64,000 nucleotides of DNA. Origin: Iphinoe sp. HA4291-MV1. GTDB taxonomy: Bacteria; Cyanobacteriota; Cyanobacteriia; Cyanobacteriales; Nostocaceae. A program made the position numbers and the translations under genes. Position 1 is the first letter of the stretch. Each line of letters begins with the position of its first letter. Below the pieces are notes generated by a model. The model was not told where the DNA came from and did not search any database. It saw only the letters and a program-made list of their open reading frames with translations. Positions 17,022 through 45,266 of the stretch are shown here, piece by piece. The stretch spans positions 19,909 through 83,908 of the forward strand of contig JAHHHH010000024.1 of NCBI GenBank assembly GCA_019359415.1, written 5' to 3'.

Positions 17022-17455
17022 ACAATCAAAACCAAGAAAGTATAACTAACTCCGAAGCTAGTTACAGTAGCGATTTTAATCCTAATAACAATAATCACTT
17101 AGAAAGAGATGATGAAATTCATGAGCAAGGCGATAGTAATAACTGCCCAAACACCAAAACTTATCTAATAACCATCCAAATTCATCCAGAAGAAGAACAA
17201 GCTATCCTATCAATTGGTATCAGAAACGCACCACCCGTAATTAAAACTATCGACTATCAAGAAATAACTTCACAACCGGCCATCAAAGACTGCATCCGAG
17301 AGTTGGAAGAAATACTACCCAAAATCATAGAAACTGCTGAAAAGGCAATAAATACTACCAGTAATTCCACTCAAACAAGACAAGTACAACAGCGAGAATT
17401 ACCCAAAGATTATCAAAAAGCCGAATCTAACAGAAAACAACTTTCACTTTTCTAA
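17018..17455 (+). CDS. PRTRC system protein E-like, with C-terminal clamp-binding motif
   Basis: 145 residues; the ATG overlaps the primase stop. The N-terminal 50 residues are polar and disordered-looking. Then come beta strands TYLITIQIHPEEEQAILSIG, a helix IKDCIRELEEILPKIIETAE, and a polar tail ending exactly in QLSLF. The strand/PP/ELEE pattern and cassette position suggest PRTRC protein E. QLSLF is the consensus pentapeptide that docks proteins into the bacterial beta sliding clamp. A clamp gene lies at 25814 on the same plasmid, and the family B polymerase and delta' proteins end the same way, so this protein may be brought to the replisome. The E assignment is tentative. Confidence 0.6.
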   Translation: MNNQNQESITNSEASYSSDFNPNNNNHLERDDEIHEQGDSNNCPNTKTYLITIQIHPEEEQAILSIGIRNAPPVIKTIDYQEITSQPAIKDCIRELEEILPKIIETAEKAINTTSNSTQTRQVQQRELPKDYQKAESNRKQLSLF

Positions 17456-19334: not shown

Positions 19335-19335
19335 C

Positions 19336-25813: not shown

Positions 25814-27178
25814 ATGAAACTAACAACTACTCAATTTGTACTGACAGAACTCCTAGAAATAGCAAAAAACGGCATATCCACAAGACCAGTAGACCCTATA
25901 CTCGGAAGTTTGCTAATCGAAGCCTCGGATGAAGGTAGACTTACCGTCATTGGTACTGATCTGAATGTCAGTATCAAAACTACGGCAATAACTAATATTC
26001 TACAGGCAGGTGTAGTCGCCTTAAACGCCAAACTACTAACCAACACGGTTAACAATCTAGGAAGCGGCGAACTGGATATTGAAGTAAGCGAACACATTTG
26101 CGTTATCAGCCACAGTACGGGGAAATGTCGTATCGTAGGAGGAAATCCAGAAGATTTTCCAAGTATCTCAGAAACAGAAAACCCCACGGAAATCAGTATC
26201 CCTAGCAAAAAGCTACAAGCTGCCTTAGAAGCTTGTCTGTATTGCAGTAGCACAGACGAAACCAAACTTATCCTCACAGGCGTACATTTTCAGTTACAAG
26301 GCGAAAATTGGAGTTGCGCTAGCACCGACGGACACCGCCTTGCGTTGGTATCCTCCAAGCTAGAGGGAAACTACTCGCCAATCTCATTCACAGTCCCTAG
26401 AAGAAGTCTCACCGAGTTGGCAAAGCTCCTCTCGACAACAACCGAAAATAGCAGTTGTACGCTCAAGGTTGGAAACAACACTATCCAGTTTATCTTGCCA
26501 AATGCTGAACTCACATCCAGGTTGTTAGAAGGAGAATTTCCCCATATTAACCACCTTATTCCTAAAAGCTTTGCTAACGAACTCATAGTAGAACGCAAAG
26601 GAATGGAAATAATTCTTAAAAGAATCAGCCATTTCGCAGAGAAAAAACACAAAATTGTCAAAATTCTATGGGAGGTAAATGACCAACAGGCAACATTAAT
26701 GACGGGTAATACTGATATTGGGGACGCGGTAGATTCTTTGCTTATCAAGACCAAAACCAGTATAGGAGAAAACATCGGTATTGGGCTAAATAGTGGCTAT
26801 CTACAAGAAGCGCTCAAGCACATCTCAACTGATGAAATTATATTCAGATTTAACAAGCCCCTCCAACCAGTCATCATTTCTCCTCTAGGTGGATTGCTTG
26901 ACCAACTAACACTAATTATGCCCGTAGAAGTGCAAGATTTCGATAAACCAGAAGGTCTTACCAAACAGAAAACTGACACTTCAAAACCAGAAAATAAAAC
27001 AGGAGCAGAAAATATTACTGGGGTGGATAAACTTCCAGAACTAGAAAAAGTATCCAATGAAACAACTAATGTCACAGACACACCGCCGTCTCATACACCT
27101 ACCGCTAACAAATCAAAATCCCGCAAGCGCAAGCAAGAACTAAAACCAGAACCAAAATTAGAAACAACAGCCGTATAG
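25814..27178 (+). CDS. dnaN: DNA polymerase III beta subunit (sliding clamp)
   Basis: 454 residues, against about 370-390 for typical clamps. Recognisable features are KAALEAC-like central helices (SKKLQAALEACLYC), CASTDGHRLALVSSKL, the EGEFPHINHLIPK strand and the C-terminal pocket strand LDQLTLIMPVEV, where most clamps have the M-P-x-R/V-L end. The three-domain clamp ends near residue 378. A further 75-residue Lys/Thr/Glu/Pro-rich tail (to PKLETTAV) is extra and disordered. Clamps encircle DNA and tether polymerases; partners bind through QL(S/T)LF-type peptides, which occur on three other proteins of this plasmid. The domain core looks intact and divergent from chromosomal cyanobacterial DnaN. 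Confidence 0.93.
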   Translation: MKLTTTQFVLTELLEIAKNGISTRPVDPILGSLLIEASDEGRLTVIGTDLNVSIKTTAITNILQAGVVALNAKLLTNTVNNLGSGELDIEVSEHICVISHSTGKCRIVGGNPEDFPSISETENPTEISIPSKKLQAALEACLYCSSTDETKLILTGVHFQLQGENWSCASTDGHRLALVSSKLEGNYSPISFTVPRRSLTELAKLLSTTTENSSCTLKVGNNTIQFILPNAELTSRLLEGEFPHINHLIPKSFANELIVERKGMEIILKRISHFAEKKHKIVKILWEVNDQQATLMTGNTDIGDAVDSLLIKTKTSIGENIGIGLNSGYLQEALKHISTDEIIFRFNKPLQPVIISPLGGLLDQLTLIMPVEVQDFDKPEGLTKQKTDTSKPENKTGAENITGVDKLPELEKVSNETTNVTDTPPSHTPTANKSKSRKRKQELKPEPKLETTAV

Positions 27179-27186
27179 ACCAAAAA

Positions 27187-27519
27187 TTGAATCCTCTGCG
27201 CTCTGAAGACACGCAGATTCACGCCATATCCCCGTCTAGCTTTTCGCCCCTTCGGGTGAGTCCTTCTCCTATCCCAGAGGCTGCGCCAACGGACACGCCA
27301 CGCGTTAGCGAAGCTCCTCTGAAAGAGGTACGCCAGTCACCTGCGGTAAGTCCTGCGGACAGGCTGCGCCAACGCGTAGCGTCTCCATCAGGAGAGGGAA
27401 ACCCTTCCACAATGCTGGACCCACCGTTCTGGCTATCAAGCTCCCGCATTATTTTCGGTATAGTCAGTTTTCTGACTGGCTATACACAAATTCATCTATA
27501 AAATCAAATACTCTTAAAT
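27187..27519. repeat. Dispersed-repeat cluster and leader of dnaX
   Basis: No true gene despite an open 104-codon frame, which is translated repeat (TCTCCTATCCCAGAGGCTGC, GGAGAGGGAAACCCTTCC and others). Positions 27431-27462 are a 32-base sequence repeated exactly at 35303-35334 upstream of holA. Next to it lies a hairpin, GTCAG TTTT CTGAC (27463-27476), extended by TATA/TATA on both sides. The repeat lies 57 bases before the dnaX ATG, so it could carry promoter or attenuator function. Confidence 0.55.
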
Positions 27520-28836
27520 ATGTACACACCACTGCATCTCAAATATCGCCCTCAGCAACTTTCACAAATAATCGGACAAGAACATATTGTACGCACTCTG
27601 GATAATGCAATACTCCCAAGAGGGAGTAGCTCTGCGAGCGCACTCAGCAAGATTGCCCCAGCCTATGTATTTACCGGTCCCAAGGGTACAGGTAAAACCA
27701 GTACAGCTCGCATTCTCGCCAAATCCCTCAACTGTCAATCAACAGAAGAACCAACAACTAAACCCTGTGGCGAGTGCAATTCTTGTCAGACGATTTCTCA
27801 CTCCTCATCCCTTGATGTAACCGAACTCGACGCCGCCAGTCACTCAGGAGTAGAGAACATTCGCGAGATAGTCTCTAACCTTCAACTTAAACCAATCGAG
27901 AGTAGGCGCAAAATCCTAATAGTAGATGAATGTCATGCCCTTTCCCACCAATCGTGGCAAGCATTACTCAAAACAGTAGAACAACCACCCGCCCATGTTG
28001 TGTTCATCTTCTGTACCACCGAGGTACACAAGGTTCCAGAAACTATCATCTCCCGCTGCCAAAAGTTTGACTTTAGAAGAGTTTCCCTCTCACTAGTTGT
28101 AGATTACCTGGAAAAAGTTGCCTACCAAGAAAGTATAAATATCACTCCTACAGCATTAACCGCCATCGCTAAAGCTTGCCACGGACACCTACGCGACTCA
28201 CTCAAACTCTTAGACCAACTAACCTTACTAGGATTCGGGGAAATCACTCCCAACTGGGTATGGGAACTATCAGGTACTATCCCCTCAGACGATTTAGTTA
28301 CTTTCTGTGAAAATATCACCAAGGGGGAAATGACAGGCAATTTAGGCATTCTCCAAGATTGGATGAAATATGGCAAGCACCCAATCACCATCCACACAAG
28401 TCTTGTCAGCTTTCTAAAAGACCTACTTATCTGCAAAAACAACCCGAATGGCAGAAATCTCACTGAACTAGAGGAGGACACCTGGAAGGAACTTACAACA
28501 ATCTCTAAATCGTGGAGTACTAACCACATTCAGTCGGCGATCGCACTTCTAATGGCACGCCAAAATCTCATGCGAGATGAAGGGGCGCATTTATGGTTGC
28601 AAGCTACCCTTATCGAGATAGTTCCAACCACAAACAGTCCCCAAACTCAACCTTGGAAGAATTGGAAAACTGCCCAAGATGCAATTAATTGGGGGAAAGA
28701 ACAACTACCCCATCTATCACAAGCACAGTTGCAGAAACACTGGCAGAAGCTTACACCCATTAATGGAAAAAAGGCTCCAGCATGGGTACAACTAGTAGAA
28801 AAGCTTCAAACTGATTCTCAATTACAGACTGCGTAA
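27520..28836 (+). CDS. dnaX: DNA polymerase III gamma/tau-type clamp loader ATPase
   Basis: 438 residues. AAA+ clamp loader features in order: KYRPQQLSQIIGQEHIVRTL, Walker A GPKGTGKTSTAR (about 53-64), zinc-binding cysteines C(N)CQS...CGECNSC (about 71-90), Walker B-type ILIVDECHALSHQSWQALLK, sensor 1 FIFCTTEVHKVPETIISRCQ (SRC arginine-finger motif) and sensor 2 region GHLRDSLKLLDQL. The length suits a gamma-like form; a long DnaE-binding tau domain is absent. A small repeat-derived insert (LPRGSSSASALS) sits near residue 31. With holA, holB and dnaN it would make a plasmid-specific clamp-loading machine. Confidence 0.95.
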   Translation: MYTPLHLKYRPQQLSQIIGQEHIVRTLDNAILPRGSSSASALSKIAPAYVFTGPKGTGKTSTARILAKSLNCQSTEEPTTKPCGECNSCQTISHSSSLDVTELDAASHSGVENIREIVSNLQLKPIESRRKILIVDECHALSHQSWQALLKTVEQPPAHVVFIFCTTEVHKVPETIISRCQKFDFRRVSLSLVVDYLEKVAYQESINITPTALTAIAKACHGHLRDSLKLLDQLTLLGFGEITPNWVWELSGTIPSDDLVTFCENITKGEMTGNLGILQDWMKYGKHPITIHTSLVSFLKDLLICKNNPNGRNLTELEEDTWKELTTISKSWSTNHIQSAIALLMARQNLMRDEGAHLWLQATLIEIVPTTNSPQTQPWKNWKTAQDAINWGKEQLPHLSQAQLQKHWQKLTPINGKKAPAWVQLVEKLQTDSQLQTA

Positions 28837-28895
28837 AAATACTTTTAACTTTAGAAAAATCAAAAATCCACTTTCCCCAATTTTTGGCTACGGTA

Positions 28896-29044
28896 TACAC
28901 ACAAGTCTCGAAATTCCACCTAACACTTGGTTTCGTCGCCCTAGCTCCCAAATTATGGAAAGAAGTGGAGTTTCAAGTCCCCCAAGATTTGGGTATTTAG
29001 GGGGTTAGGAGAGTTAAAACGTATGCGGACAGGACTTGTGTGTA
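28896..29044. mobile_element. MITE-like element with 12-bp terminal inverted repeats
   Basis: TACACACAAGTC at 28896-28907 and GACTTGTGTGTA at 29033-29044 are perfectly inverted, 149 bp apart, with no ORF between. The inside contains AGTCCCCCAAGATTTGGG and TTAGGGGGTTAGGAG, familiar from small Nostoc elements. It sits in the dnaX to 29128 gap. Confidence 0.55.
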
Positions 29045-29127
29045 CGAGGTTGACATACCAGCAAAAAAATTTAACAAAGCCTCAATAATTTACAAAAATA
29101 ACTGACCATTTTGCGGCAACAACGAGT

Positions 29128-29514
29128 ATGTTTACCAGAACCGAACTTGAAACGAAGAGTTTTTTGGAGTTAGTTACATTGTGCAATCGATATGGTTTGA
29201 AAGCACATTCTGACCCTAATCTGAGGTCTTCTTGGGCTGCTGTTTTGCTGTCGTTTTCTAATATCGCTATTTCCCAGATGCAGCGGGGAGTGGGGTTAAA
29301 GCATCCTGGGCGTGATGCTATTGAGTCTTTAATTGTTGCTTATGATGCTTTTGGGTTACCGACTCGTGAGCAATCTGCTTTGATTAAAGTTTCTGTGGAA
29401 GAGAGAAGATTAATGCTTCAACCGTATAAAGTGGAGCAGCAAAGAATGCTGGCTCTTTATCAGGCGAAAGTGAATATTGATAAAGCGATATCTTTGCTTG
29501 GTGGTTTTTATTAA
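29128..29514 (+). CDS. Small hypothetical protein, possible SAP-like N-terminus
   Basis: 128 residues, helical. The start TRTELETKSFLELVTLCNRY and GLKAHSDPNLRSSWAAVLLS resemble a SAP-type helix-extended-helix DNA-binding motif, but this is by shape only. The rest is helices with Arg/Gln. Codon usage (TTT, GAG, more G+T) differs from the adjacent replication genes. Flanked by MITE-like elements on both sides. Confidence 0.5.
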   Translation: MFTRTELETKSFLELVTLCNRYGLKAHSDPNLRSSWAAVLLSFSNIAISQMQRGVGLKHPGRDAIESLIVAYDAFGLPTREQSALIKVSVEERRLMLQPYKVEQQRMLALYQAKVNIDKAISLLGGFY

Positions 29515-29563
29515 GAGGGAACTCTTAACGGGCAACAGGCAACAGGGGAATCCTCATAAATAA

Positions 29564-29754
29564 ATGATACTGTTGGTCAATTCGTAAGGGGTTTAGCCCC
29601 TCACCCGTAAAACATTGATTTTGCGTTGTTCACCCACCCGGAAATAAATTTTGGGCTAATAGCTCAAGTTCATTGAAATGGACTGAAATCAAAGAAATCA
29701 ATACGGATTGGAACTGAGGAGTTAGACCCCCTATTAATTCGCCAACAGTATCAT
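29564..29754. mobile_element. MITE-like element with 19-bp terminal inverted repeats
   Basis: ATGATACTGTTGGTCAATT at 29564-29582 and AATTCGCCAACAGTATCAT at 29736-29754 are inverted with 17 of 19 matches, 191 bp overall. There is no ORF inside, so it is probably non-autonomous. It occupies most of the gap upstream of the polymerase gene. Confidence 0.6.
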
Positions 29755-29827
29755 AAATTAAGGCGCTTGCATCCTTTATCTTCTCCTGTCGGAATTTGGC
29801 ATTTGTAATTCGTAAAATTCAGAATTT

Positions 29828-31915
29828 ATGAGTTATAACCATAGAAATTTTATTACCAAATTTAGTAATAAAATTATAGTTGATGAGGAAAAACTTGACA
29901 TATTCTGGGAAGATACCACTCCTATACTCCAGTGGCAACCTACAGTAAATATTTCGACCTACTCTAGTCTCAAAACTCTGGTAGTTGATATTGAAACAGC
30001 AGGAATCAACCCAAGAGAGAATCGCATCTATGCAATTGGCTGTATGAGTGAAATGGGGAAAGTCTCCATTTTTATGGATATCTCCGAAAGCAAAATCCTC
30101 ATCTCGTTTCTCAAACACCTAGAAATAAGCAAACTAGACGTAATTTATACTTACAATGGAACTGAGTTTGACCTACCGTTTATTATCACCCGCTGCGAAT
30201 TACATGGCATTGCTCATCCCTTTAGAATTGCATCTAGAACGCGCACTATCCGAACTGCCCAGGTACATGGTACATCACTAACTATCCGAGAAATATTCAT
30301 CCGAAACAGCACCGGACACTCCCCTCAAATCGGGAAACCCTTATGCCTATGTCCTGTGGACACGCTACGCGTTCACGAAGTGTGCCCGTTGGCGCAGCCT
30401 CTCCGACAGGAGAAGGGCTTACGGCACACCTATGTCCAGAGGACACGTTACGCGAACGGTGAACGTCAGAGCCTCAACGTCTCTTGCGCGTCTCCGACAG
30501 GAGAGGGAAAGCCGTCATTCGTACTGGACCCCTCACGCACCAGTTCCCCTGCTACAGCGCTGATTCACCACGGAGGTGTCCTCCAGCACGTAGATATCTA
30601 TATCTGCGTTCTCAGATGGGATTTTGTCGCTAAGGAGCTAACCAACGGACGGTCACTCAAACAAGCCGTCCGAGAAATGGGATTGCGCTCTCAAGCTCGA
30701 CTGGTTCTCCCCTATGAGGAAATTCTAGCTTGCTGGAAAGCTGGTTCCGGTAGTGAGGGATGGCAGAAAATTAAGGAGTATCTTACTTACGACTTAGAAG
30801 ATACCCGACTCATCGCCAATAGGCTAGTACCCTCATATTACTACGAAGCGCTAGTTGTACCGGGAATGAACCTCCAACAACTAGCCATCACGGGTAATGG
30901 CACTAAGTGGGAGAGAATTTTCGAGCATCACTACCAAGGGATAAAACCTAAACCCGACCGCAAGTACAAATTCCAAGGGGGAATAGCGTATTCTGTTCCA
31001 GGACTGTATAGGAAAGTTGGATACATAGACATTAGTTCAATGTATCCCAATGCCATACTGTCGAAAGGCATTGTCTCTTGTAAGGATACAAATCGCATTG
31101 GGTTAAGCATCTTGCAATATCTGGTAAAAGAAAAATCAAGGCTGGAACAACTTGCTAAGACTGGAGATATTGTTGCCAAGGAAAAAAGAGAATCCACCAA
31201 AGTCCTAGCTAATTCTCAGTTTGGGTTCTTTGGCACATCTGAACTTGCCTTTAATGATATGGAAGCAGCAGCCCTGGTAACAGCCTATGGTCGGCGTATC
31301 CTACAGTTTATGATTGAGGTAATCAATCAAGCTGGCGCAGTCCCTATAGAAGTTGATACCGATGGTGTATTCTTTACCCACCCTAATGTAGAAGAGGTGT
31401 ACGCCATACTTCAATCTCAATTACCCAAAGGGATAATCGTCAAACTAGAATTTATTGCCGAAGCCATGTTTATTCCCGAAAGGGGAACTAAGAACTATCT
31501 CTTGTGGCTAAAAGATGGCAGGATTATCCGTAAAGGTAGTTGGAGAAGTCGTTCTCGCTCGAAGCTAGAAAAAGAATTTGCTGTTGAATATCTAACCCAT
31601 TTCATTCAAAATCAGCTACGCGCAGAAGAACATTACAGAAATATCAAATCGCAGATTTCATCAAGAGACTACCCAAAAGAGAAACTCGCCATCACTCGCA
31701 AAATTCGTGAAGGTGAAAAAGAACTTCTCAAACTAGGAAAACCTGGAGATATCGTCACCTACTATTACAGCATTCAAGGTGTAACAAATATCAAAAGTTC
31801 GCAGAACTATTCATCACAGTATTATCTCAATTTACTTGCCCAAAAACGACTAGAAATCTTGCAAATAGCAAACCCTCAAATGCTAGACAGTCGCAAACAA
31901 TTGACCCTATTCTAA
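29828..31915 (+). CDS. Family B DNA polymerase with 3'-5' exonuclease, C-terminal clamp motif
   Basis: 695 residues. Exo I LVVDIETAGINP (Asp55, Glu57 region), Exo II YTYNGTEFDLPF (about 106-117) and Exo III around HVDIYICVLRWDFVAKELT form the proofreading domain. Polymerase motif A is GYIDISSMYPNAIL (about 398-411), motif B KVLANSQFGFFGT (about 458-470) and motif C VEVDTDGVFF (DTD about 510-512). It is a compact family B enzyme. It ends exactly in QLTLF, the bacterial beta-clamp docking peptide. About residues 160-255 (nt 30306-30590) are translated Nostoc repeats inserted in frame between Exo II and Exo III, without a stop. Proofreading folding may be affected. No DnaE-type polymerase is present in the window, so this may be the polymerase served by the plasmid clamp loader. 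Confidence 0.92.
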   Translation: MSYNHRNFITKFSNKIIVDEEKLDIFWEDTTPILQWQPTVNISTYSSLKTLVVDIETAGINPRENRIYAIGCMSEMGKVSIFMDISESKILISFLKHLEISKLDVIYTYNGTEFDLPFIITRCELHGIAHPFRIASRTRTIRTAQVHGTSLTIREIFIRNSTGHSPQIGKPLCLCPVDTLRVHEVCPLAQPLRQEKGLRHTYVQRTRYANGERQSLNVSCASPTGEGKPSFVLDPSRTSSPATALIHHGGVLQHVDIYICVLRWDFVAKELTNGRSLKQAVREMGLRSQARLVLPYEEILACWKAGSGSEGWQKIKEYLTYDLEDTRLIANRLVPSYYYEALVVPGMNLQQLAITGNGTKWERIFEHHYQGIKPKPDRKYKFQGGIAYSVPGLYRKVGYIDISSMYPNAILSKGIVSCKDTNRIGLSILQYLVKEKSRLEQLAKTGDIVAKEKRESTKVLANSQFGFFGTSELAFNDMEAAALVTAYGRRILQFMIEVINQAGAVPIEVDTDGVFFTHPNVEEVYAILQSQLPKGIIVKLEFIAEAMFIPERGTKNYLLWLKDGRIIRKGSWRSRSRSKLEKEFAVEYLTHFIQNQLRAEEHYRNIKSQISSRDYPKEKLAITRKIREGEKELLKLGKPGDIVTYYYSIQGVTNIKSSQNYSSQYYLNLLAQKRLEILQIANPQMLDSRKQLTLF

Positions 31916-31917
31916 CA

Positions 31918-32115
31918 ATGGCTAAAAAATTATCACTACTCAACAAAAAACAACGCAAGTGGTTAGATAATTTCCTGAAAGACAAACCCCACGCCAGATT
32001 AACCAACGTCTATGACTTATTAGATGGCGACCGGGTTATTGAAATTGAATGGTGGGAACATACCATACCTTTAATTCTTGATAGGCATACGCTTATTGAG
32101 AACAAGTTAAAATAG
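31918..32115 (+). CDS. Small basic hypothetical protein after polB
   Basis: 65 residues, starting two bases after the polymerase stop, so clearly in the same transcript. It begins KKLSLLNKKQRKWLDNFLKD, a basic helix, then YDLLDGDRVIEIEWWEHTIP. Not recognised; perhaps a polymerase accessory. An IS630 element follows closely. Confidence 0.6.
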   Translation: MAKKLSLLNKKQRKWLDNFLKDKPHARLTNVYDLLDGDRVIEIEWWEHTIPLILDRHTLIENKLK

Positions 32116-32173
32116 GGCTTCGGAGCAAACAACGAGAAATAAGGAGTTTTGAGGATTTATTATCCCGAACTCA

Positions 32174-33311
32174 TACCATTTCACGAAAAATTTGATGTAA
32201 ATAAAGCATCAAGAATAAAATCCCAACCTGTAATAGAAGCAACGATTGATGTGTTTAATTTCTCCAAACGTTTCCAGATAAATTGCCTTAATTCATCTAA
32301 GGTTTCAAAGCTTTCCCAAGCTAAATGTCTTTTAACTTCCTCCCACAATCGCTCAATTGGATTAACTTGTGGCGTATGTGGAGGTTGAAATAACAAAATT
32401 ATATTTTCTGGTATCTGAAGATATTGGCTAAAATGAAAAGCTCCATTATCTAACTGGATTATATGTATATCTTGAGGATAGCTAGCAGAAAATTTTTCTA
32501 AAAAAATATTAAAACAAGCTGCATTTAAATGAGAGAATTCCCAGATAAAATACTCCCCAGTTAATGGTTCTACTAATCCATATAAATAAAAGTTCTCTCG
32601 TTTCCATTGCATGATACCAATAGGCTTAGTACCTTTTTTAGTAATTAGTCTCCCCGCTTCGGTCTTTAATCCCACGCGGCTTTCGTCTTCACACCAATAT
32701 CTAATTCTTTTGTTTTTATCTATTGGTGATATCACGTATGTTTTAATTACTTCTAAGTATTGCAGGAGTTTTTTTTAAATTCTGATTCTGCTTCGGGCTG
32801 GTATTTTACCCCTACTGCACGCGGCACTTTTAGCTTTGCTTTCATTTGATAACGTACTGTATCATGTACTACTTTGTATGACGCTTCTACTCCCTCTACC
32901 GCTTTTAACCATGTTCGTATTTCTTCATAACTTTTAAATCCTTGTGGATCTTCTAATTCTTTTAAAAGTTGCTCTCGAACATCCGAGTTAATGATTGGCG
33001 GTCGTCCTGAACCCTTTTTTCTTGATACCAGACTGGCTATTCCCGACTCTGTATAAGCCTTTAACCACCTTTGTACCGTCGCGCTTCCTCTTCCCAACAC
33101 CACAGCCAAATCTTGTATTGTCTTTACTTGCCCTATTTTCAGTAAATACAAGGCGCTTATACGTTCTTTCCCTAATGCTGTTTTTTGTTTTCTCAGCAGT
33201 TCACGTAATTCCTCTGTTGATTCTTCTATTTTTACTTTAGTGACTCCAGCCATGAACTTCTGCTCATATTTCTTCTTTATCTATCTTTATCATTTTTTTA
33301 GTGAAATGGTA
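32174..33311 (-). mobile_element. IS630-family insertion sequence with perfect core inverted repeats
   Basis: CCATTTCAC (32176-32184) and GTGAAATGG (33301-33309) are perfect inverted ends flanked on both sides by TA (32174-32175, 33310-33311), the IS630/Tc1 target duplication. The similarity continues inward as A-rich tracts (GAAAAA and, reversed, TAAAAAAA). It carries one transposase gene on the minus strand and separates the polymerase operon from ilvD. Confidence 0.85.
32181..33253 (-). CDS. IS630 transposase, two overlapping frames joined at an A8 run
   Basis: The first frame (33253-32753) is an HTH protein: LGKERISALYLLKIGQVKTI, VLGRGSATVQRWLKAYTESG. It ends soon after EFKKNS. The second frame (from about 32770 to 32181) has the DDE blocks CEDESRVG, IIQLDNGAFH and TPQVNPIERLWEEVKRHL. 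Where they meet, the coding strand reads TTTAAAAAAAACTCC. A one-base slip on the eight adenines gives EFKKKLLQYLEVIKTYVISP and joins both parts into one transposase of about 355 residues. This arrangement is common in IS630 elements and suggests programmed frameshifting, so the enzyme may be active. Confidence 0.85.
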
Positions 33312-33354
33312 TCACGTTAGACTATTAAGAATCGTTAGACAAATAGGATGCGCC

Positions 33355-35199
33355 ATGCCGACCTATCGATCCAAAACCTCCACTCAGGGACGCAATATGG
33401 CCGGTGCCCGTGCGCTCTGGCGCGCCACCGGAATGCACACCGCAGATTTCGAGAAGCCAATCATTGCGGTTGCCAACTCCTTTACCCAATTCGTACCCGG
33501 CCACGTTCACTTGAAGGATCTGGGCCAATTGGTGTGCCGTGAGATTGAAACCGTTGGTGGTGTCGCCAAGGAATTCAACACCATCGCAGTGGACGATGGT
33601 ATCGCCATGGGCCATGACGGGATGCTCTACAGTCTGCCCTCGCGCGAGATCATTGCCGATTCGGTCGAGTACATGGTCAACGCTCATTGTGCCGACGCCC
33701 TAGTCTGCATTTCCAACTGTGATAAAATCACCCCTGGTATGTTGATGGCAGCCCTGCGTCTCAACATTCCCGCAGTATTCGTCTCCGGCGGTCCCATGGA
33801 AGCTGGCAAGACGAAGCTATCGGAGCACAAACTGGACTTGGTGGACGCTATGGTGGTTGCCGCAAACGATAGTGTCAGCGACGAGATTGTCGAAGAATAT
33901 GAGCGTTCTGCGTGCCCGACCTGTGGCTCTTGCTCTGGCATGTTCACCGCCAACTCCATGAACTGTCTCACCGAGGCCATCGGTCTCGCCTTGCCAGGTA
34001 ACGGCACGGTGCTCGCGACCCATTTCGACCGTAAGGATCTGTTCCTCAACGCTGCGCGAACCATTGTCAGCATTACCCGCCGCTACTATGAGCAGGATGA
34101 TGAATCGATACTGCCACGCTCTGTAGCCAGTTTCAAAGCATTTGAAAATGCCATGATGTTGGACATCGCCATGGGCGGTTCCACCAACACCATTTTGCAC
34201 TTGCTGGCCGCCGCCACCGAAGCCGGTGTCGATTTCACCTTGACCGACATTGATCGCCTCTCGCGCAAGATTCCACAACTGTGCAAGGTAGCACCTAACA
34301 CACTCCAGTATCATATAGAGGATGTCCACCGTGCCGGCGGCATTCCCAGCATTCTCGGCGAGCTGGATCGTGCCGGACTGCTCCACACGGACGTGCCGAC
34401 GGTCCACAGTAAGACGTTGAAAGAAGCGCTCGATTACTGGGATATCATGCGTACCAACAACGAAGCCGTCCACACCTTCTTCAAGGCCGGCCCTGCGGGT
34501 ATTCCCACTCAGCAAGCATTTAGTCAATCGACCCGCTGGCCCTCACTCGATCTGGATCGAGTGAGCGGCTGTATCCGCCGTCTCGAAAACGCCTACAGCA
34601 CCCAAGGCGGACTGGCTGTGCTATACGGCAACCTGGCTGAGCGCGGTTGTATTGTGAAGACCGCAGGCGTAGACGAAAGCATTCTGGTGTTTGAAGGGCG
34701 GGCGCGCGTTTATGAAAGTCAGGATGCCGCTGTCAAAGGCATTCTCAACTCGGAGGTGGAACCGGGCGACGTAGTGGTCATTCGCTATGAAGGTCCGCGC
34801 GGTGGTCCTGGTATGCAGGAAATGCTCTATCCAACCAGTTACCTTAAATCTAAGGGTCTGGGCAAGGTTTGTGCATTATTGACCGACGGTCGCTTCTCAG
34901 GCGGTACTTCGGGACTCTCGATTGGTCATGCCTCTCCGGAGGCGGCAGCGGGCGGCAACATTGCTCTGGTTCAAGATGGCGATCGCATCGGGATCGACAT
35001 TCCCAATCGCAGCATCAATGTGGATCTATCGGCGGAGGAATTAGCCAACCGTCGTGTTGCAATGGAAGCGAAGGGCAAAGATGCCTGGAAGCCGGAGCGG
35101 CCCCGGCAGCGTCGGGTGAGTGCGGCGCTCAAGGCTTATGCACTGTTGGCGACTAGCGCGGATACTGGCGCGGTACGAAACCTGGAAATGCTTGAGTAG
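33355..35199 (+). CDS. ilvD: Dihydroxy-acid dehydratase, proteobacterial-type, horizontally acquired
   Basis: 615 residues from ATG 33355, after AGGA in AATAGGATGCGCC; the frame opens at 33301 inside the IS end. Full-length IlvD with iron-sulphur cysteines CISNCDK (about 122) and [11 protein letters not shown] (about 187-197), [16 protein letters not shown], and C-terminal [20 protein letters not shown]. IlvD dehydrates 2,3-dihydroxy-acids in valine, isoleucine and pantothenate synthesis in the cytoplasm. The roughly 615-residue form is that of E. coli and relatives; cyanobacterial chromosomal enzymes are shorter (about 560). G+C and codon use (CTG, CGC, GCC) contrast sharply with flanking genes. 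It lies between an IS630 element and a repeat. It could be a spare or inhibitor-resistant copy; assembly contamination must be excluded. Confidence 0.95.
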
Positions 35200-35407
35200 A
35201 GAAATACGCAGACACAAAAACGGGGGTTGTGTCGCTTGCAACAGGTTAATGGTAAGGTAGGAAAGCCTATCCTTGTTTCCCCACCCAGATTTAAAAATAC
35301 GGGGCTATCAAGCTCCCGCATTATTTTCGGTATAAAGTCTACAAGATTTATTTACCACCACTTACTGGCTAACGCAATTATATGTAAAAAAATCCAGCCA
35401 TATACCC
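35200..35407. repeat. Repeat-bearing leader of holA
   Basis: No gene. Positions 35303-35334 repeat exactly the 32 bases found at 27431-27462 upstream of dnaX, and end 73 bases before the holA start. GGTAGGAAAGCCTATCCTT (35256-35274) is a small hairpin. The remaining bases to holA are A+T-rich. Confidence 0.55.
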
Positions 35408-36361
35408 ATGCCAGTAAAATTCATCTATGGGGAAGATAACCACTCAATTTCAAAAAGGGTAGAACAATTAATCAAATATTTTACTACCCAAGAGTGGGAA
35501 ATATTCAACTACATCCGAGTTGATAACAAAACGTCAGCAATATCCCAAACAATAACAGAAGTGATGACAATTCCTTTCGGAGAAGGAGGAAAGATTGTCC
35601 ACATCACAGACGGGACGATATTAAACAAATGCCCGGATGGAATAATTTTATCATTCAAAGAAAATCTTCCCAAAATACCCAAACGAAATCTACTGTTAAT
35701 TACCTCACAAAGTAAGCCTGATGACAGAAGTAAAGCCGTCAAAGAACTACTTCAACACGCTGAAATTGAAGAATTTCCCCTCATCTCTAGTTGGGATAAA
35801 GAAGGGATAGAAAAACTCATTCAAGCTGCAGTAAAAACCCACTTCTTAGAGCTTGCTCCCACCGCCATAAGCTATCTAGTAGAGGCAATTGGAAACAATA
35901 CTGCAAGGCTCGATAGCGAACTCGCCAAGCTTGCTATCTACGCCCAAGGGGAAAAAGTAGATATTGAGGATATCTCACACTTAGTTAGCAACAACAATAC
36001 TAGTTGTACTGGACTTGCCCACGCCATCAAAAATAGTAAAGCTAATACAGCAGCACAAATACTTTATCGCCTGCTAGACAATAACGAACACGCTCTCAAG
36101 ATAGTCGCTACTCTCATAAGTTACTTCCGCACTTGGCTAATTACCAAAGCTGGGGTAGAAGAAAAACTACCCGACAACAAAATCTTAACACTCGCCGAAC
36201 TCAACAATCCCAAAAGGCTGTACTTCCTCAAAAAAGAAGTTGAAACTGTAAGCGCCCTCAAACTTAAACAAACCCTCATAGCACTAATCCAACTTGAAAG
36301 CGAACTCAAGTCTGGCATTGACAACTTTACCTCCACCATCATTCAAATCTGTACTTTATGA
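35408..36361 (+). CDS. holA: DNA polymerase III delta subunit (clamp loader wrench)
   Basis: 317 residues. It has the delta-type three-domain plan: MPVKFIYGEDNHSISKRVEQ at the N-terminus (the usual YGEDxxxI start), NLLLITSQSKPDDRSKAVKE in the AAA-like domain without a Walker A, YLVEAIGNNTARLDSELAKL in the middle and a helical collar domain at the end (LKLKQTLIALIQLESELKSG). Delta opens the beta clamp. The stop overlaps the holB start (ATGA), so delta and delta' are made together. It is divergent but convincing, supported by the adjacent holB and nearby dnaN/dnaX. Confidence 0.85.
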   Translation: MPVKFIYGEDNHSISKRVEQLIKYFTTQEWEIFNYIRVDNKTSAISQTITEVMTIPFGEGGKIVHITDGTILNKCPDGIILSFKENLPKIPKRNLLLITSQSKPDDRSKAVKELLQHAEIEEFPLISSWDKEGIEKLIQAAVKTHFLELAPTAISYLVEAIGNNTARLDSELAKLAIYAQGEKVDIEDISHLVSNNNTSCTGLAHAIKNSKANTAAQILYRLLDNNEHALKIVATLISYFRTWLITKAGVEEKLPDNKILTLAELNNPKRLYFLKKEVETVSALKLKQTLIALIQLESELKSGIDNFTSTIIQICTL

Positions 36362-37272
36362 ACAACCTCTTTAACGAGATAGTCGCCCAGCATACCGCAA
36401 AACTTATCTTAAATAGCGCGATTGGGCAAGCGAGCGTGCCAAAGGCAATCGCCTCACAGAGTCAGCTCCTCCGAACCATCGCAAGCGGTAAAATTGCCTC
36501 TGCCTACTTATTTACCAGCACCATCGAAGGGGTAGGTAAAACCAAAACCGCCCTCTTATTTGCCTCCTACATCTGTAGCACCACAGACATGCTGAAAGTA
36601 CACCCGCAAGAGGAAAATTCCACTATCGGAGTAGAACAGGTACGGGAAATCATCACCTTTGTTTCAACTTCTCCCATTGAAAGCAATCACAAAGTAGTAA
36701 TTATCCACGACTGCGACACCATTACACCCACCGCCGCCAACGCCCTACTCAAAACTTTAGAGGAACCAGGAAAAGGAATATTTATTCTTATCACATCCCA
36801 AGCCCAGAATATACTGCCTACCATCAAAAGTAGGTGTCAAATCATACCATTTGCTCAGTTAGCTATTGACGAAGTAAAAACTATTCTGGAAAATCAGAAA
36901 ATCTTCTTACGCCAAGACATACTCAAACTTTGTTCGGGCAGTCCTGGTCGCGCGATCGCATTTCAGAATTTGTTAAATTCTATACCTGAAAGCATACTTG
37001 ACCACACTAACGTTTATCTTTATTGCAGTCATACTACCCTTATCAAACACCAACCATTCCCAAATTATAATTATGACAAACTGTGGGAAAGTATTGGTAG
37101 CAGCCCTATCGATTACAAACAAATCCAGTATGCTTATGAAAGCATCGCCACCGATATCCGCACTCGTGTCATCAAAAGCGCAAGCAATGAATGGGGTAAA
37201 AAGCTTAAGCAAAAACCCTTAGAAAATAATCAATCTACAGAGCTAAATAATTCACAATTATCACTGTTTTAA
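36358..37272 (+). CDS. holB: DNA polymerase III delta' subunit with C-terminal clamp motif
   Basis: 304 residues. AAA+ delta' features: a Walker A-like TIEGVGKTKTALLFASYI (about 55-72), VEQVREIITFVSTSPIESNH, Walker B-like KVVIIHDCDTITPTAANALL, KTLEEPGKGIFILITSQAQN and sensor/SRC motif LPTIKSRCQIIPF. The C-terminal collar is followed by a polar tail ending exactly in QLSLF. Delta' normally does not need a terminal clamp peptide, so this is notable. An in-frame short repeat (AIGQASVPKAIA, nt 36417-36455) sits near residue 22. The motif set fits a functional loader subunit. Confidence 0.88.
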   Translation: MNNLFNEIVAQHTAKLILNSAIGQASVPKAIASQSQLLRTIASGKIASAYLFTSTIEGVGKTKTALLFASYICSTTDMLKVHPQEENSTIGVEQVREIITFVSTSPIESNHKVVIIHDCDTITPTAANALLKTLEEPGKGIFILITSQAQNILPTIKSRCQIIPFAQLAIDEVKTILENQKIFLRQDILKLCSGSPGRAIAFQNLLNSIPESILDHTNVYLYCSHTTLIKHQPFPNYNYDKLWESIGSSPIDYKQIQYAYESIATDIRTRVIKSASNEWGKKLKQKPLENNQSTELNNSQLSLF

Positions 37273-37364
37273 ACAACTATTACCTACTACCCAGTGACAG
37301 TTGTGCAACCATACATCAAGTATTATCAGGATTGGTTAAACCAACCTGATTTTTTCCTCTTCAT

Positions 37365-38351
37365 CTACAATTTTGCAGCATCTTTTCTACCTCGTTCGTA
37401 GAAGGGTAACAGGTTAGAAAAAGCTTCTCGCAGGAGCCAATTTCTACCTTCCTGCCATTCCTCAACCCCAGAAGTAGTAATAAAATAACCAATCCTATAA
37501 ACAGCAGCAACCAACAATGATTGAAAGGTAGTAGAGACGCGAGAATTAAATGGAATCAACATTATCTCGTCAAGGCGATTAGCATCATACCCGTGACCAA
37601 CAAATACGTAATACACTATCCTGTGGACTAATTTTGATAAGAGTACAGTGCGGTCAGTCCATTTTTCAATATAGGGTTTACATTGAAAATAACCATCTGG
37701 CAATAACCCAAGTTCAATATCAAATTCAGCCCTTTCAACATCATCCATACCTTCCAAAAAATTTTCAGTTTTATCATCTATATCGCTATTACCCATACCA
37801 AAACCACCCTCAGCTGCAATCTCAAGCGCAAGATAATGCAGCGCCAATCCCCACATAAGGCTATCTGAGTCCTCAATTCCAGTTAGGGAAAAACTATCTG
37901 TTCCATTAAAATATTTCCTACCCATAGTTTGAAGACTCTGATAAACTATCCTACGCGCAAAATACTGGTCAGCAGGATTAATAAACTTTCCCTTAAGCTC
38001 ACCATCTACTAAATACATTGCAATTGCCACAAGAGCATAATAGGAAGCATCATGCAAGCAAGTCGAGTTGGGAGAAAGAAGGTCTACCAAACGAAGTGAC
38101 ATCACCTCATCCCAAGCACCAATCCTAACTGTGTTAGATACCTTCCTAAAATGTTCAACATCCGGACCACCATTTCTATCCCACCATTCAGAATTGTCTA
38201 CAAGTAAAGGTGACGAGTAATCAGCACTCTCAATTCTTTGTTGATCTTCGTCATACTGCATCCACATCAGAGCGAGCATGACCAACTTACATTTGACAAA
38301 TCTGGATTGAAGCGATCGCATTGAGTCTATTTCTAATTTAAATGTTTCCAT
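37365..38351 (-). CDS. Hypothetical protein, function unknown
   Basis: 328 residues on the minus strand between holB and ssb. Helical and acidic, with FVKCKLVMLALMWMQYDEDQ near the start, DASYYALVAIAMYLVDGELK in the middle and YRIGYFITTSGVEEWQEGRN near the end. No signal peptide or known motif. It is convergent with holB and divergent from ssb, so it has its own promoter in the A+T-rich 38352-38523 gap. HIP1 (GCGATCGC) lies in the first codons. Confidence 0.6.
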   Translation of the reverse strand: METFKLEIDSMRSLQSRFVKCKLVMLALMWMQYDEDQQRIESADYSSPLLVDNSEWWDRNGGPDVEHFRKVSNTVRIGAWDEVMSLRLVDLLSPNSTCLHDASYYALVAIAMYLVDGELKGKFINPADQYFARRIVYQSLQTMGRKYFNGTDSFSLTGIEDSDSLMWGLALHYLALEIAAEGGFGMGNSDIDDKTENFLEGMDDVERAEFDIELGLLPDGYFQCKPYIEKWTDRTVLLSKLVHRIVYYVFVGHGYDANRLDEIMLIPFNSRVSTTFQSLLVAAVYRIGYFITTSGVEEWQEGRNWLLREAFSNLLPFYERGRKDAAKL

Positions 38352-38523
38352 AAAAAATTAATAAATCGATACATATATATTTCCCATATCTACAATTTTT
38401 ATACCAATAAATAAACAAAATATCAGAAAAATTATGACTAGCTCCACACAGTTACAAACAACCACAAACTAACAAGTGCTAACGCAGTAGAAATGTAAAG
38501 TATTAGAAAATTTCACAAATCCT

Positions 38524-38907
38524 ATGAGCGACTATCTCAATCGCATCACAATCGTCGGACGCTGCGGTCAAAATCCGGACATTCGCTACTTTGAAAGCGG
38601 TTCGGTAAAAGCAAGTATTTCGGTTGCAGTTAAACCTCCCTACAAAAGTGAAACTGCATTATGGTTTGACCTCATCGCCTGGGGTTCAACCGCCGAGGTA
38701 ATCGCAAATTACGTCAAAAAGGGAACCCAAATTTCTATATTAGGCGAGTTCGGATTTGATAGATGGACAGATAAAAACTCAGGTGCAATGCGCTCTAAAC
38801 CCGTAGTAACTGTCCAAACAATCGAATTATTAGGTTCTCCTCGCAGTGAAGAGAAATCCTCCTTTGAGCAAGAACAAACCATAAGCCTAGCTAATGCTAA
38901 TTTCTAA
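38524..38907 (+). CDS. ssb: Single-stranded DNA-binding protein
   Basis: 127 residues. OB-fold SSB signature: LNRITIVGRCGQNPDIRYFE, SVKASISVAVKPPYKSETAL, WFDLIAWGSTAEVIANYVKK and GTQISILGEFGFDRWTDKNS. The C-terminal tail ends ANANF, lacking the acidic DDIPF that SSBs use to recruit partners. The second SSB-like gene downstream has a better tail. It coats plasmid single strands during replication or transfer. Confidence 0.93.
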   Translation: MSDYLNRITIVGRCGQNPDIRYFESGSVKASISVAVKPPYKSETALWFDLIAWGSTAEVIANYVKKGTQISILGEFGFDRWTDKNSGAMRSKPVVTVQTIELLGSPRSEEKSSFEQEQTISLANANF

Positions 38908-39173
38908 GGACAGTCTCGTGCTTTGAGTGTCCCGCGTTGAGAAAATTATCTGGTAAAAATGTCTGCACAAAAAAACTAGAGTGGCAAAGTTAACTAGAGA
39001 AGGACGAGCAGGGGAGATCAAGAGCCGGGGAAGAAAGAAAAACAATCTTCATTACCCCTAAAGTTGCTTCTATTTTTCGCCAATCCAGTTAATATTGCCG
39101 TCCTAGAAAAAAATAGTTTCAACCCAAAGTAACTGGTTGAAAAGTAGTCAATTAGTAAAAAACCTACAATACC
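38908..39173. other. Intergenic region between the two SSB-like genes
   Basis: 266 bases with no gene. GGACAGTCTCGTGCTTTGAG is followed by TGTCC, a weak hairpin near 38909-38932. AGTTTCAACC and GGTTGAAAA at about 39116-39140 form a loose inverted repeat upstream of the second gene and could be an operator. Nothing else stands out. Confidence 0.3.
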
Positions 39174-39593
39174 ATGATTGAAACCAACACAGCAGTAGTC
39201 ATCAAAAGCGTTAATGAAACCCACGACTCATTGGGTAGCTTAATCACCTACGGAATAGCTGAATTTAGCTATCGGGGTAAAGATGGCGTGGTAATAGATG
39301 AAATCTCCTACCGCGCCAAAGGAACTCCAGCCGTAGAAATCAAAGGGAGTGGAGAATACCCTCAAGGTGTAGCTACCGGATACATCAATTTACAAGTCAA
39401 CGAACGGGAAGGCTACAAAGAAAAAGTCGCTACCCTCGTCATTAGAGGGTTCATCCCAACTGGGAAAATACTTCCTCAATTAGCACAATTTGGAGCTACA
39501 AAAGAAGAAACTCCCGACTTTGCACAAGAATTACTGGAGGAAAACATCAACAGCGATAGTAACGAAGAATTAAGCGACGTCCCACCGTTCTAA
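39174..39593 (+). CDS. SSB-like protein with DVPPF tail
   Basis: 139 residues. A beta-rich N-terminal 100 residues (TAVVIKSVNETHDSLGSLIT, EISYRAKGTPAVEIKGSGEY, VATGYINLQVNEREGYKEKV) has an OB-fold-like strand pattern. An acidic disordered tail follows, ending NEELSDVPPF, close to the classic SSB tip DDIPF. Such a tip recruits helicases, primase and repair enzymes. It may therefore be a specialised plasmid SSB or a DNA-binding partner that takes over the interaction role missing in the first SSB. The call is by tail and context; the fold needs testing. Confidence 0.55.
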   Translation: MIETNTAVVIKSVNETHDSLGSLITYGIAEFSYRGKDGVVIDEISYRAKGTPAVEIKGSGEYPQGVATGYINLQVNEREGYKEKVATLVIRGFIPTGKILPQLAQFGATKEETPDFAQELLEENINSDSNEELSDVPPF

Positions 39594-39719: not shown

Positions 39720-40493
39720 ATGACAAGTAAAACGAAAATAATCGCCGCATTCAACCAGTCAGGGGGTGCGGGGAAAACGACAACTATACACAATCTGGGG
39801 TATCATCTCGCCCAAAAACACCAAGTCCTGCTTGTTGATATGGACCCACAAGCAAGCCTAACAACCTTCATGGGAATCGAACCAAAAGAGCTAAAAGACG
39901 AACAGACAATATATACTGCCATCACCGAACGCGCACCCCTAAATATTTGGCACGAACCCATCCACAAGATGCATCTTGTACCCAGTAATAATGCTTTAGT
40001 TGGGGCTGAACTCGAACTAGGGCGTGATATCACAATCGACGGTCGCCAGAAACTAAAACTAGTACTCGAACCAATAGCCAATCAATACGATTACATCTTA
40101 ATCGATTGTCCTCCTTCGCTGGGCTATTTAAGCATTATGAGCGTACTTGCAGCTACCCATCTAATAATCCCAGTCCAAACAGAATATAAATGCTATGCAG
40201 CTACAGAACAACTACTAACAACAATTGCCCGTCTCAAAAAAGGAGGACACAAAGACTTACAAATTGCAGCTTTTATCCCAACCCAGCACAACCAACGTAC
40301 CCTTCAACAATCAGGTATACTCGAAGCTATCAAAAACCAAATTGAGGGGCGCGTCCACATAACTACTCCTATTCCCAAATCAATAGACTTCCCAAGTGCA
40401 TCACAAGCACACCTTCCACTTGCTCTGTGGAAGAAAAATCACCCAGCAGTTAGTATCTTAGAAGAAATCGCAAATTATCTCAAAAAACTATAA
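39720..40493 (+). CDS. parA: ParA partition ATPase
   Basis: 257 residues. ParA/Soj features: FNQSGGAGKTTTIHNLGYHL (Walker A at about 12-20), VLLVDMDPQASLTTFMG (Walker A'), DYILIDCPPSLGYLSIMSVL (Walker B) and LIIPVQTEYKCYAATEQLLT. The deviant Walker box normally reads KGGxGKT; here the signature lysine is serine (SGGAGKT). It lacks an N-terminal HTH (type Ib-like length). It positions plasmid copies with ParB, whose gene starts three bases after its stop. Confidence 0.93.
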   Translation: MTSKTKIIAAFNQSGGAGKTTTIHNLGYHLAQKHQVLLVDMDPQASLTTFMGIEPKELKDEQTIYTAITERAPLNIWHEPIHKMHLVPSNNALVGAELELGRDITIDGRQKLKLVLEPIANQYDYILIDCPPSLGYLSIMSVLAATHLIIPVQTEYKCYAATEQLLTTIARLKKGGHKDLQIAAFIPTQHNQRTLQQSGILEAIKNQIEGRVHITTPIPKSIDFPSASQAHLPLALWKKNHPAVSILEEIANYLKKL

Positions 40494-40495
40494 AT

Positions 40496-41488
40496 ATGAC
40501 CACCAAGAAAGTCGAACTCAAAGAATATGACAAAAATGCACTCGATGATTTATTGGGTAGTAGTGCAAGCCAAGAAGAATCAACCAAGAAAAACACTACT
40601 ACCCTACCAATAGATTCAATCATCCTCCCTGCATCCCAACCAAGACGCTACTTTGATACCGAAGCACTACAATCACTGGCAAACGATATCAAAGAAAATG
40701 GACTTCTTGCACCGATCGCAGTCAGATATACATCAGGCAACACTTACGAACTCATGGCTGGCGAACGCCGCCTCCGTGCTTGCAAGATTGCAGGATGTGA
40801 AGAAATACCTGTCAATATCATTGACTGCGATGACAAAACAGCCACCCGCATCCGCATCGCAGAGAACCTACAAAGGGAAGACCTCAACGCCTATGAAGAA
40901 ACTATCGGCATTCTTGAACTACTCGCTCTGGAGCTAGATATTAACCAAGATACGGTAGTCTCACTACTATATGAGATGAATAATGAAACGAAAGGAAATT
41001 CTAACCATAATGTTATGGTTAGCTCCGAAGCCGTGACTGTACAAGACATTTTTTCCAAGTTAAGCAAAATCACCTGGCAATCATTTGTAGCTAACCGCTT
41101 ACCTATACTCAAACTACCTGGTGACATTCAGTCAGTACTGGCGAAAGGTGAACTGGAGTACACTAAAGCAACAACAATTTCCAAAATCAAGAATTTAGAG
41201 CAACGACAAGAGGTATTAAAACAGGCAATTGAGGAAAAACTATCTTTATCACAGATAAAAAAGATAGTAGGGAATATCCTAGAAGCTAGCAAACAAGAGA
41301 AACAAGAAACGCCTACAAGAGAATTAGCAACACGAGTCGGAAAAATATCATCACTGATAAGGAAAGACAAAACTCTGAATGAAGATAAAAAAAGATTGAA
41401 TAAAGTTAATAAACTAATAGAACAGCTTATAGAATTGCTTAAACTTCCAGAAGAGATAGAAACAGCAGAAGAAACTCTAGAAAACTGA
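40496..41488 (+). CDS. parB: ParB partition protein
   Basis: 330 residues. The ParB CTPase/nuclease-like domain has SIILPASQPRRYFDTEALQS, LANDIKENGLLAPIAVR, YELMAGERRLRACKIAG (GERRLRA box) and ATRIRIAENLQREDLNAYEE (ENLQR box). A central HTH region follows, and a C-terminal Lys/Glu coiled-coil (about 270-330) for dimerisation. It loads at parS sites and stimulates ParA. A palindrome at 41525 could be such a site. Arranged as an operon with parA. Confidence 0.92.
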   Translation: MTTKKVELKEYDKNALDDLLGSSASQEESTKKNTTTLPIDSIILPASQPRRYFDTEALQSLANDIKENGLLAPIAVRYTSGNTYELMAGERRLRACKIAGCEEIPVNIIDCDDKTATRIRIAENLQREDLNAYEETIGILELLALELDINQDTVVSLLYEMNNETKGNSNHNVMVSSEAVTVQDIFSKLSKITWQSFVANRLPILKLPGDIQSVLAKGELEYTKATTISKIKNLEQRQEVLKQAIEEKLSLSQIKKIVGNILEASKQEKQETPTRELATRVGKISSLIRKDKTLNEDKKRLNKVNKLIEQLIELLKLPEEIETAEETLEN

Positions 41489-41524
41489 TTATCAAAACTA
41501 TAGAGCTTCCAAAGAGTTCGCACG

Positions 41525-41536
41525 TTTCTATAGAAA
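41525..41536. promoter_or_regulatory. 12-bp palindrome after parB, candidate parS half
   Basis: TTTCTATAGAAA is a perfect palindrome 37 bases after the parB stop, in a context of GTTTC...GAAAT reminiscent of TGTTTCACGTGAAACA-type parS sites. Only one copy was noticed, so this is a weak candidate. Confidence 0.3.
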
Positions 41537-41599
41537 TTTCACTGAAATTCTCATCGCAGCACTCAACTAGTAGTACTGCGATTCTCTTGAGAGAACTTT

Positions 41600-42845: not shown

Positions 42846-42850
42846 CCTTT

Positions 42851-43792: not shown

Positions 43793-43803
43793 GAATTATT
43801 CCG

Positions 43804-44934: not shown

Positions 44935-45026
44935 AGCTGATTATTTCCTGCGTTAGCGTAGCGGCTCCGACACGAGAAGGAGCATCGCTCTTAGTGTCAA
45001 AGAATTTGTCAAAGTTGTTGATACTA

Positions 45027-45049: not shown

Positions 45050-45095
45050 TGTAAAAGTAGTTTGACATCAGTCTTGACGACGCATTTATCTACAC

Positions 45096-45235: not shown

Positions 45236-45266
45236 GTGCAAGTTTCCCCCCGGAGGTGATAAAGAT

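Follow-up and report, generated by a model that had tools for sequence, protein, structure and literature searches.

Why would a cyanobacterial plasmid carry a beta clamp, a clamp loader and a DNA polymerase of family B, whose bacterial members are known mostly from repair? This question is raised by a 64,000-nucleotide stretch of Iphinoe sp. HA4291-MV1 (hereafter the window), which covers bases 19,909-83,908 of the 83,908-bp contig C38 (JAHHHH010000024.1), where the plasmid is incomplete. With moderate confidence, we take this region to be part of a plasmid-encoded replisome core, in which the family B polymerase (PolB) would be held by the plasmid clamp and would most likely copy the plasmid itself. 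The gene set named by a sequence-only reading of this DNA (dnaN, dnaX, polB, holA, holB and ssb within 14 kb, with no DnaE) was confirmed by family matches. These genes lie on the plus strand, together with an SSB-like open reading frame (ORF), parA and parB, and the region is laid out as follows:

25814..27178, plus strand: dnaN, beta clamp with a C-terminal tail of ~83 residues that is absent from the host clamp (TIGR00663, E 4e-72)
27520..28836, plus strand: dnaX, gamma/tau clamp-loader ATPase (TIGR02397, 7e-120)
29828..31915, plus strand: polB, family B DNA polymerase with 3'-5' exonuclease and C-terminus ...KQLTLF (PF03104, 5e-10; PF00136, 4e-6)
30311..30590, plus strand: dispersed-repeat insertion in polB, in frame, between Exo II and Exo III (from alignment to relatives)
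31898..31912, plus strand: codons of the C-terminal clamp-type motif QLTLF (read from the PolB C-terminus)
31918..32090, plus strand: remnant, recognized by homology, of a gene of ~260 residues that sits between polB and holA in plasmid pBOCT1
32181..33253, minus strand: two transposase-like ORFs, presumably of IS630 type, foreign to relatives at this place (comparison with pBOCT1)
33301..35199, plus strand: ilvD, foreign to the module, with a GC content of 55.9% against 40-45% for the module genes (family match and comparison with pBOCT1)
35408..36361, plus strand: holA, clamp-loader delta (TIGR01128, 1e-50)
36358..37272, plus strand: holB, in which a deletion has joined delta-prime to the C-terminal end (...SQLSLF) of what is the following gene in relatives (PF13177, 1e-34)
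38524..38907, plus strand: ssb (PF00436, 9e-21)
39174..39593, plus strand: SSB-like ORF with an acidic ...DVPPF tail, which adjoins ssb in relatives

The clamp matches the bacterial beta clamp model TIGR00663 over positions 1-366 of 367 and above its cut-off, and the pocket landmarks T[DN]xH[RK], P and MP, whose positions we assume from E. coli numbering, are kept in most rows. Gamma/tau, delta and delta-prime occur together, as in a DnaX clamp loader, with the delta-prime of the window being a truncated fusion. The ORF that had been called an SSB-like gene does exist beside ssb; its family identity found no backing, with no match in Pfam, NCBIfam or PHROGs, and we take the acidic tail to be its sole SSB-like trait. 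The assignment of a family B polymerase with exonuclease motifs and motif C was borne out by an alignment of 12 rows, window and phage N1 included, in which the exonuclease residues D54, E56, D115, Y227 and D231 and the polymerase residues D310, K367, N371, D419 and D421 are invariant, as are N110 and G375; Exo I-III and motifs A, B and C are all present. Searched with a PolB profile, the host genome gives a single match, and a profile built from 26 rows retrieves PolB structures of archaea at E 3e-40. The GWN signature of the Pol II-like clade in ExoII (PMC7544198; this and the other papers cited were consulted in part) is absent from the plasmid rows, where ExoII reads [YF]N[GQ]xxFD, and the DNA polymerase II model NF004421 matches weakly (E 3e-10). 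The plasmid PolBs are 37-41% identical to those of Nostoc and Anabaena phages, a pairwise identity that carries no phylogenetic placement, and the Nostoc phage PolBs have been put in bacterial group G3 of the EpsilonN-like clade (PMC7544198). In the pairs tried, the ratio of nonsynonymous to synonymous substitution rates (dN/dS) of polB is 0.08-0.25, compared with 0.07-0.29 for four other module genes; polB is under purifying selection.

The arrangement is conserved well beyond the window. A tblastn search of PolB against 72,556 plasmid records (PLSDB) returned 27 records, 18 of them cyanobacterial and 9 from Deinococcus. The DnaN and HolA of the window match all 18 cyanobacterial records, and the order dnaN-dnaX-polB-holA-holB is found in 11 annotated PolB plasmid regions (of the 18), with other genes interspersed in some. 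Genome contigs were scanned as well, and of the 79 loci retained, 49 are cyanobacterial with long matches (L038-L086, five of them being PLSDB records too); within the 10 kb retrieved, dnaN is present at 39 of these 49, dnaX at 41, holA at 44 and at least one clamp or loader gene at 45. The expectation that polB and clamp genes co-occur in relatives was thus upheld in both sets, and this conservation excludes a cluster that arose by chance or misannotation. A general link between PolB and clamp genes was rejected, as the annotation of Deinococcus gobiensis P3 shows no clamp gene closer than 9 kb to PolB. Within the host family, 33 of 146 sampled genomes (counted by rows) have a PolB match above 900 bits, a patchy distribution as expected of a plasmid gene; a tally of 93 PolB-matched genomes was discarded, as it includes many exonuclease-like matches of ~20 bits. 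PolB was also seen on chromosome-size contigs at L063, with the full module, and at G137:C1:5753843-5755657, which are possible integrated plasmids.

Because the plasmid on contig C38 is incomplete, the statement that it has no dnaE rests on the plasmid records of its relatives. From 41 cyanobacterial holA records, we searched 24 whole plasmid records with holA, 11 with PolB and 13 without. DnaE was found on 0 of the 24, and the host dnaE is on separate contigs; on these grounds a DnaE elsewhere on the plasmid was rejected. The PolB profile recovered the same 11 records, plus one weak match to a PolA exonuclease. The two groups differ in their companions: a primase of the PrimPol type is present on 11/11 PolB plasmids and on 0/13 PolB-less ones, whereas a family A polymerase is present on 0/11 and 9/13, respectively (a stop interrupts two of the nine matches), and four of the 13 have neither PolB nor PolA. 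By tblastn, the 60 PolA records listed, which leave out 47 weaker ones, include at least 14 of the 23 PolB-less cyanobacterial holA records and no PolB record out of 18. Family searches for dnaE, dnaN and holA place host genes on other contigs, with dnaE on C39 and C30, a second dnaN on C34 and another holA also outside C38, so the replication genes of the plasmid are additional to these. The candidate primase of the module and the gene that follows it are also in the window:

16065..17021, plus strand: primase with Prim-Pol and PriCT_2 domains (PF09250, 7e-23; PF08707, 2e-22)
17018..17455, plus strand: protein of 145 residues with C-terminus QLSLF, overlapping the primase end, with a similar-ending ORF at the same place in six loci

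The 145-residue protein has no credible family match in Pfam (COG7 at E 0.03, below the cut-off) or PHROGs. Its ending is shared with PolB and is of the bacterial clamp-binding type, for which the consensus is QL[S/D]LF and an example is QLSLF at the C-terminus of B. subtilis PolC (PMC12309361). QL[ST]LF ends 11/11 plasmid PolBs, window included (one with two residues beyond), and 44 of 48 readable PolB C-termini in the genome set (L081, whose frame has stops, among them); the remaining ones read QLSIF in two cases and QLTLL in one, L085 has none and L083 is cut off. On this peptide, PolB is predicted to be a clamp-binding polymerase. The motif is absent from the PolBs of phages N1, A-1(L), Elbi and Dfl-JY23 (0/4; the motif filter of this comparison left out the polB and holB of the window itself) and from the viral contig PolBs L118 and L119. 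Among 2,727 ORFs in 75 loci, taken as stop-to-stop stretches that are related and partly duplicate, QL[STDG]LF lies in the last eight residues of 98 and elsewhere in 8 more. The 98 comprise 55 PolBs, one PolB fragment, 32 products of the gene after holB, the holB fusion of the window, six products of the gene after PrimPol and three Calothrix ORFs, which are a large methyltransferase/helicase protein of plasmids (two are one record). The ~220-residue protein after holB also starts with Q[QH]SLF in 26 of 31 cases, and the proteins encoded after holB and after the primase are probably recruited to the same clamp. In PolA-type plasmids, Q[LMI][SP]L[FL] stands between the exonuclease and polymerase domains in all 8 PolAs read (of nine); it is absent from one host chromosomal PolA and from the PolA of pAL20118a (L176), a 12-kb plasmid with no annotated clamp genes, on which a DnaB-like helicase gene lies beside the family A polymerase gene. 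The host genome has a second, divergent PolA-like ORF (691 residues, G000:C48:34792-35451) besides a longer polA on C11.

If the region acts as we propose, the plasmid loader of DnaX, delta and delta-prime would open the plasmid DnaN and set the clamp on primed DNA. The plasmid PrimPol would make the primers, and PolB, tethered to the clamp by its C-terminal peptide, would extend them while SSB covers the single-stranded template. The two further motif-bearing proteins would probably join the same clamp, and the whole set would lower the dependence of the plasmid on host DnaE. The clamp-loader-PolB machine suggested by the sequence-only reading, which might replicate the plasmid or resynthesize transferred strands, is supported in part: the checks on DnaE and on co-occurrence did not refute it, the clamp motif and the primase link speak for it, and the copy in the window may be partly defective.

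That damage is the first of several observations which weigh against our interpretation. The host is close to Brasilonema, and the nearest plasmid is pBOCT1 of B. octagenarum (L005), whose PolB is 92.7% identical over 89%. Relative to pBOCT1, the window has lost ~680 bp, by which residues 1 to ~216 of delta-prime were joined to the end of the ~220-residue protein and holB was left without its C-terminal part. The missing part is presumably the collar domain, so the loader may need host delta-prime, or fail. A 280-bp dispersed repeat, which matches the host genome at 41 places counting this one, adds 91 residues in frame to polB. The gene that relatives have between polB and holA was for the most part displaced by bases 32,091-35,329, which hold the transposase ORFs and ilvD; homology to pBOCT1 stops at 32090 and restarts at 35330. 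The ilvD gene is absent at this place from pBOCT1, and contamination from E. coli was rejected as its source, since a megablast search of 20,395 E. coli records gave no match for it. The window copy may thus be partly defective or broken, with intact copies present in relatives. Plasmids of ~300 kb persist in T. variabilis ATCC 29413 and 0441 although their polB is interrupted by a transposase gene; in L006 (T. variabilis plasmid C, 20001-22730) the break, by ISAva7, falls between the exonuclease and polymerase halves. The polymerase half still ends in QL[ST]LF, and both halves in ATCC 29413 have a dN/dS of 0.09-0.11, which fits a recent insertion. This natural split nonetheless speaks against a strict need of the plasmid for PolB.

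Further reservations concern how tightly PolB and the clamp belong together. The host possesses its own dnaE, dnaN and holA. PolB occurs with no clamp genes in the fetched stretch at L061, L082 and L085, which are real exceptions (a fourth such locus, L083, is a 4.4-kb contig), and L050 and L072 have neither dnaN nor dnaX in theirs. The PolB of viral contig L117 ends in ...EQLSLFV and no clamp gene was found in its 22 kb, so the motif alone is no proof that a plasmid clamp is used. Pairwise identities over 40 loci agree closely among dnaN, holA and holB (r 0.986-0.994) and less well with polB (0.95 for dnaX, 0.86 for dnaN, 0.84 for holA and holB). Between Brasilonema and Nostoc C052 the PolBs are 81% and the clamps 53% identical, while against Hassallia L051 the values are 73% and 87%; this mismatch indicates that polB has been exchanged between clamp lineages. 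The fit of polB to a given clamp may accordingly be loose, and a preference of PolB for the plasmid over the host clamp may not exist. The plasmid sets are also not independent. In the clamp tree, the A-type clamps form a group together with clamps of cyanobacterial chromosomal type (support 97/94), by which a swap of polymerases A and B within one plasmid clamp lineage was rejected; 12 of 14 B rows fall outside the A-type group, L074 and L077 stand apart from both, and an approximately unbiased (AU) test does not reject a single plasmid clamp clade (p 0.28). On this tree, the contrast between A and B polymerases counts as few lineages, not 24 events. For the tree, B rows were thinned to 14, 12 of 29 phylum loci were used, the other 17 yielding no ORF with the pattern applied, and the spurious "dnaN" of L029 as well as L027 were omitted; L055, L070, L078 and L086, copies of records already counted, were left out of both the tree and the identity comparison. 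Of 45 B-type clamp rows measured, 43 carry a C-terminal tail of 57-101 residues and two, L074 and L077, lack it (the clamp of L058 is cut short and its tail was not counted), and the same region has 4 residues in the host clamp and 3-17 in six of seven A-type clamps; the seventh (L009) was mismeasured by the pattern and has the same end point in the alignment.

Among other explanations, the one that survives best is that the set serves conjugation, with PrimPol, PolB and clamp resynthesizing the second strand of transferred DNA once it is in the recipient, and with the resident plasmid left to the host replisome. Contig C38 also encodes TrbI/VirB10, a coupling protein and a relaxase, 8 of the 11 PolB plasmids retrieved are of conjugative type, and a strand-completion role would account for the tolerance of a split polB by a resident plasmid. 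We nevertheless regard this as unlikely: two PolB plasmids are only MOBV-mobilizable yet keep dnaN-dnaX-polB-holA-holB, the set abuts parAB in several plasmids (though transfer genes are only 6-10 kb from it in the window), and a full loader would seem excessive for strand completion. Still less probable is a clamp and loader that act with host DnaE, as extra dosage or as a takeover, the operon having picked up polB from a phage as a passenger. Such an origin would suit the PolB relatives in Nostoc and Anabaena phages, the movement of polB between clamp lineages and the four holA plasmids that have neither PolB nor PolA, and a clamp peptide common to many bacterial proteins could let host proteins use the plasmid clamp; against it count the place of polB between dnaX and holA in 11 annotated regions, its low dN/dS and constant PrimPol companion, and the family A polymerase often present on PolB-less holA plasmids. 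Least probable is that the plasmid supplies PolB for repair or bypass, in the manner of E. coli Pol II, with the clamp genes raising clamp supply, since the usual role of bacterial family B enzymes and the weak NF004421 match are outweighed by exonuclease residues kept in 12/12 rows, the missing GWN signature and the linkage of PolB to primase and every loader subunit.

The surroundings of the putative replisome core hold further genes. Partitioning genes follow the SSB-like ORF:

39720..41488, plus strand: parA and parB (family search)

Iterons were sought after parAB, with the scan covering 41400-48300, and just weak two-copy repeats were seen. Between the primase and the replisome genes lie ubiquitin-like E2/JAB/ThiF genes (18645-20807, plus strand), a set that recurs on PolB plasmids in T. 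variabilis and A. cylindrica. In Leptolyngbya boryana, the PolB-less plasmid pLBX has a ThiF gene adjacent to holA, and E1/E2/JAB operons have been described (PMC1779556). Directly after the relaxase gene, a protein of 2,117 residues (53001-59354, plus strand) has matches in 67 PLSDB records and no Pfam match over the cut-off. Its D[YF]DGD motif is kept in 8/8 aligned sequences, window included, and resembles, in our assumption, the DxDGD catalytic loop of RNA-polymerase-type double-psi barrels; the protein is possibly a plasmid RNA polymerase or primase.

What has already been published is PolB itself, reported for phages A-1/N-1 and plasmids pCC7120beta, plasmid C and pP742402 (PMC4916379); these belong to the same polymerase family, and plasmid C and pP742402 are among the plasmids analyzed here. 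The consulted parts of that paper treat the polymerase alone, and the phage copies differ from the plasmid ones in lacking the clamp motif and, in phage N1, in having no clamp genes within 10 kb of PolB. Group G3, with Nostoc phage members at the identity given above, is presented with no clamp or plasmid module in the parts of PMC7544198 consulted. POLBc-like proteins of cyanobacterial and red algal plasmids were described as a novel POLBc subfamily with a partial domain (PMC4814812); compared by description only, these are also PolB-type genes on cyanobacterial plasmids, and no clamp genes are mentioned in the parts consulted. Neither those parts nor the ones consulted of PMC1779556 mention clamp genes beside a plasmid PolB, and we found no account of a plasmid PolB-clamp-loader module in the literature searched, which covered few subscription journals and no supplements and is no proof of novelty.

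A broader view, which we offer tentatively, is that of a DnaE-independent plasmid machine, in which catalytic parts of archaeo-eukaryotic type, a PrimPol and a PolB from the Pol epsilon side, would be joined to a bacterial clamp and DnaX loader, with the clamp peptide as the shared tether of the polymerase and of two or more new accessory proteins; another plasmid lineage would have come to a similar arrangement with a family A polymerase and an internal clamp-type peptide. A survey of ~2000 bacterial genomes found that all encode the family C polymerase III alpha (PMC3919608). If the broader view is true, bacterial replicons can be copied by families A and B with the beta clamp and not by C alone, nature has rebuilt the clamp-loader machine around other polymerases from a small, testable set of parts, and the extra dnaN, dnaX and holA annotated on large cyanobacterial plasmids are explained.

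Three known systems frame the proposed core. E. coli Pol II is a chromosomal family B enzyme which can use the beta clamp and is unlinked to clamp or loader genes, whereas the plasmid polB is linked to them and lacks the ExoII signature of that clade. The phage T4 replisome is alike in that a mobile element brings its own PolB, clamp, loader and single-stranded DNA-binding protein; the T4 clamp and loader are of the PCNA and RFC types, whereas those of the plasmid match bacterial DnaN and DnaX models and its primase is a PrimPol. B. subtilis PolC differs in being a chromosomal enzyme of family C, and resembles the plasmid PolB in that a replicative polymerase ends in the C-terminal peptide QLSLF (PMC12309361).

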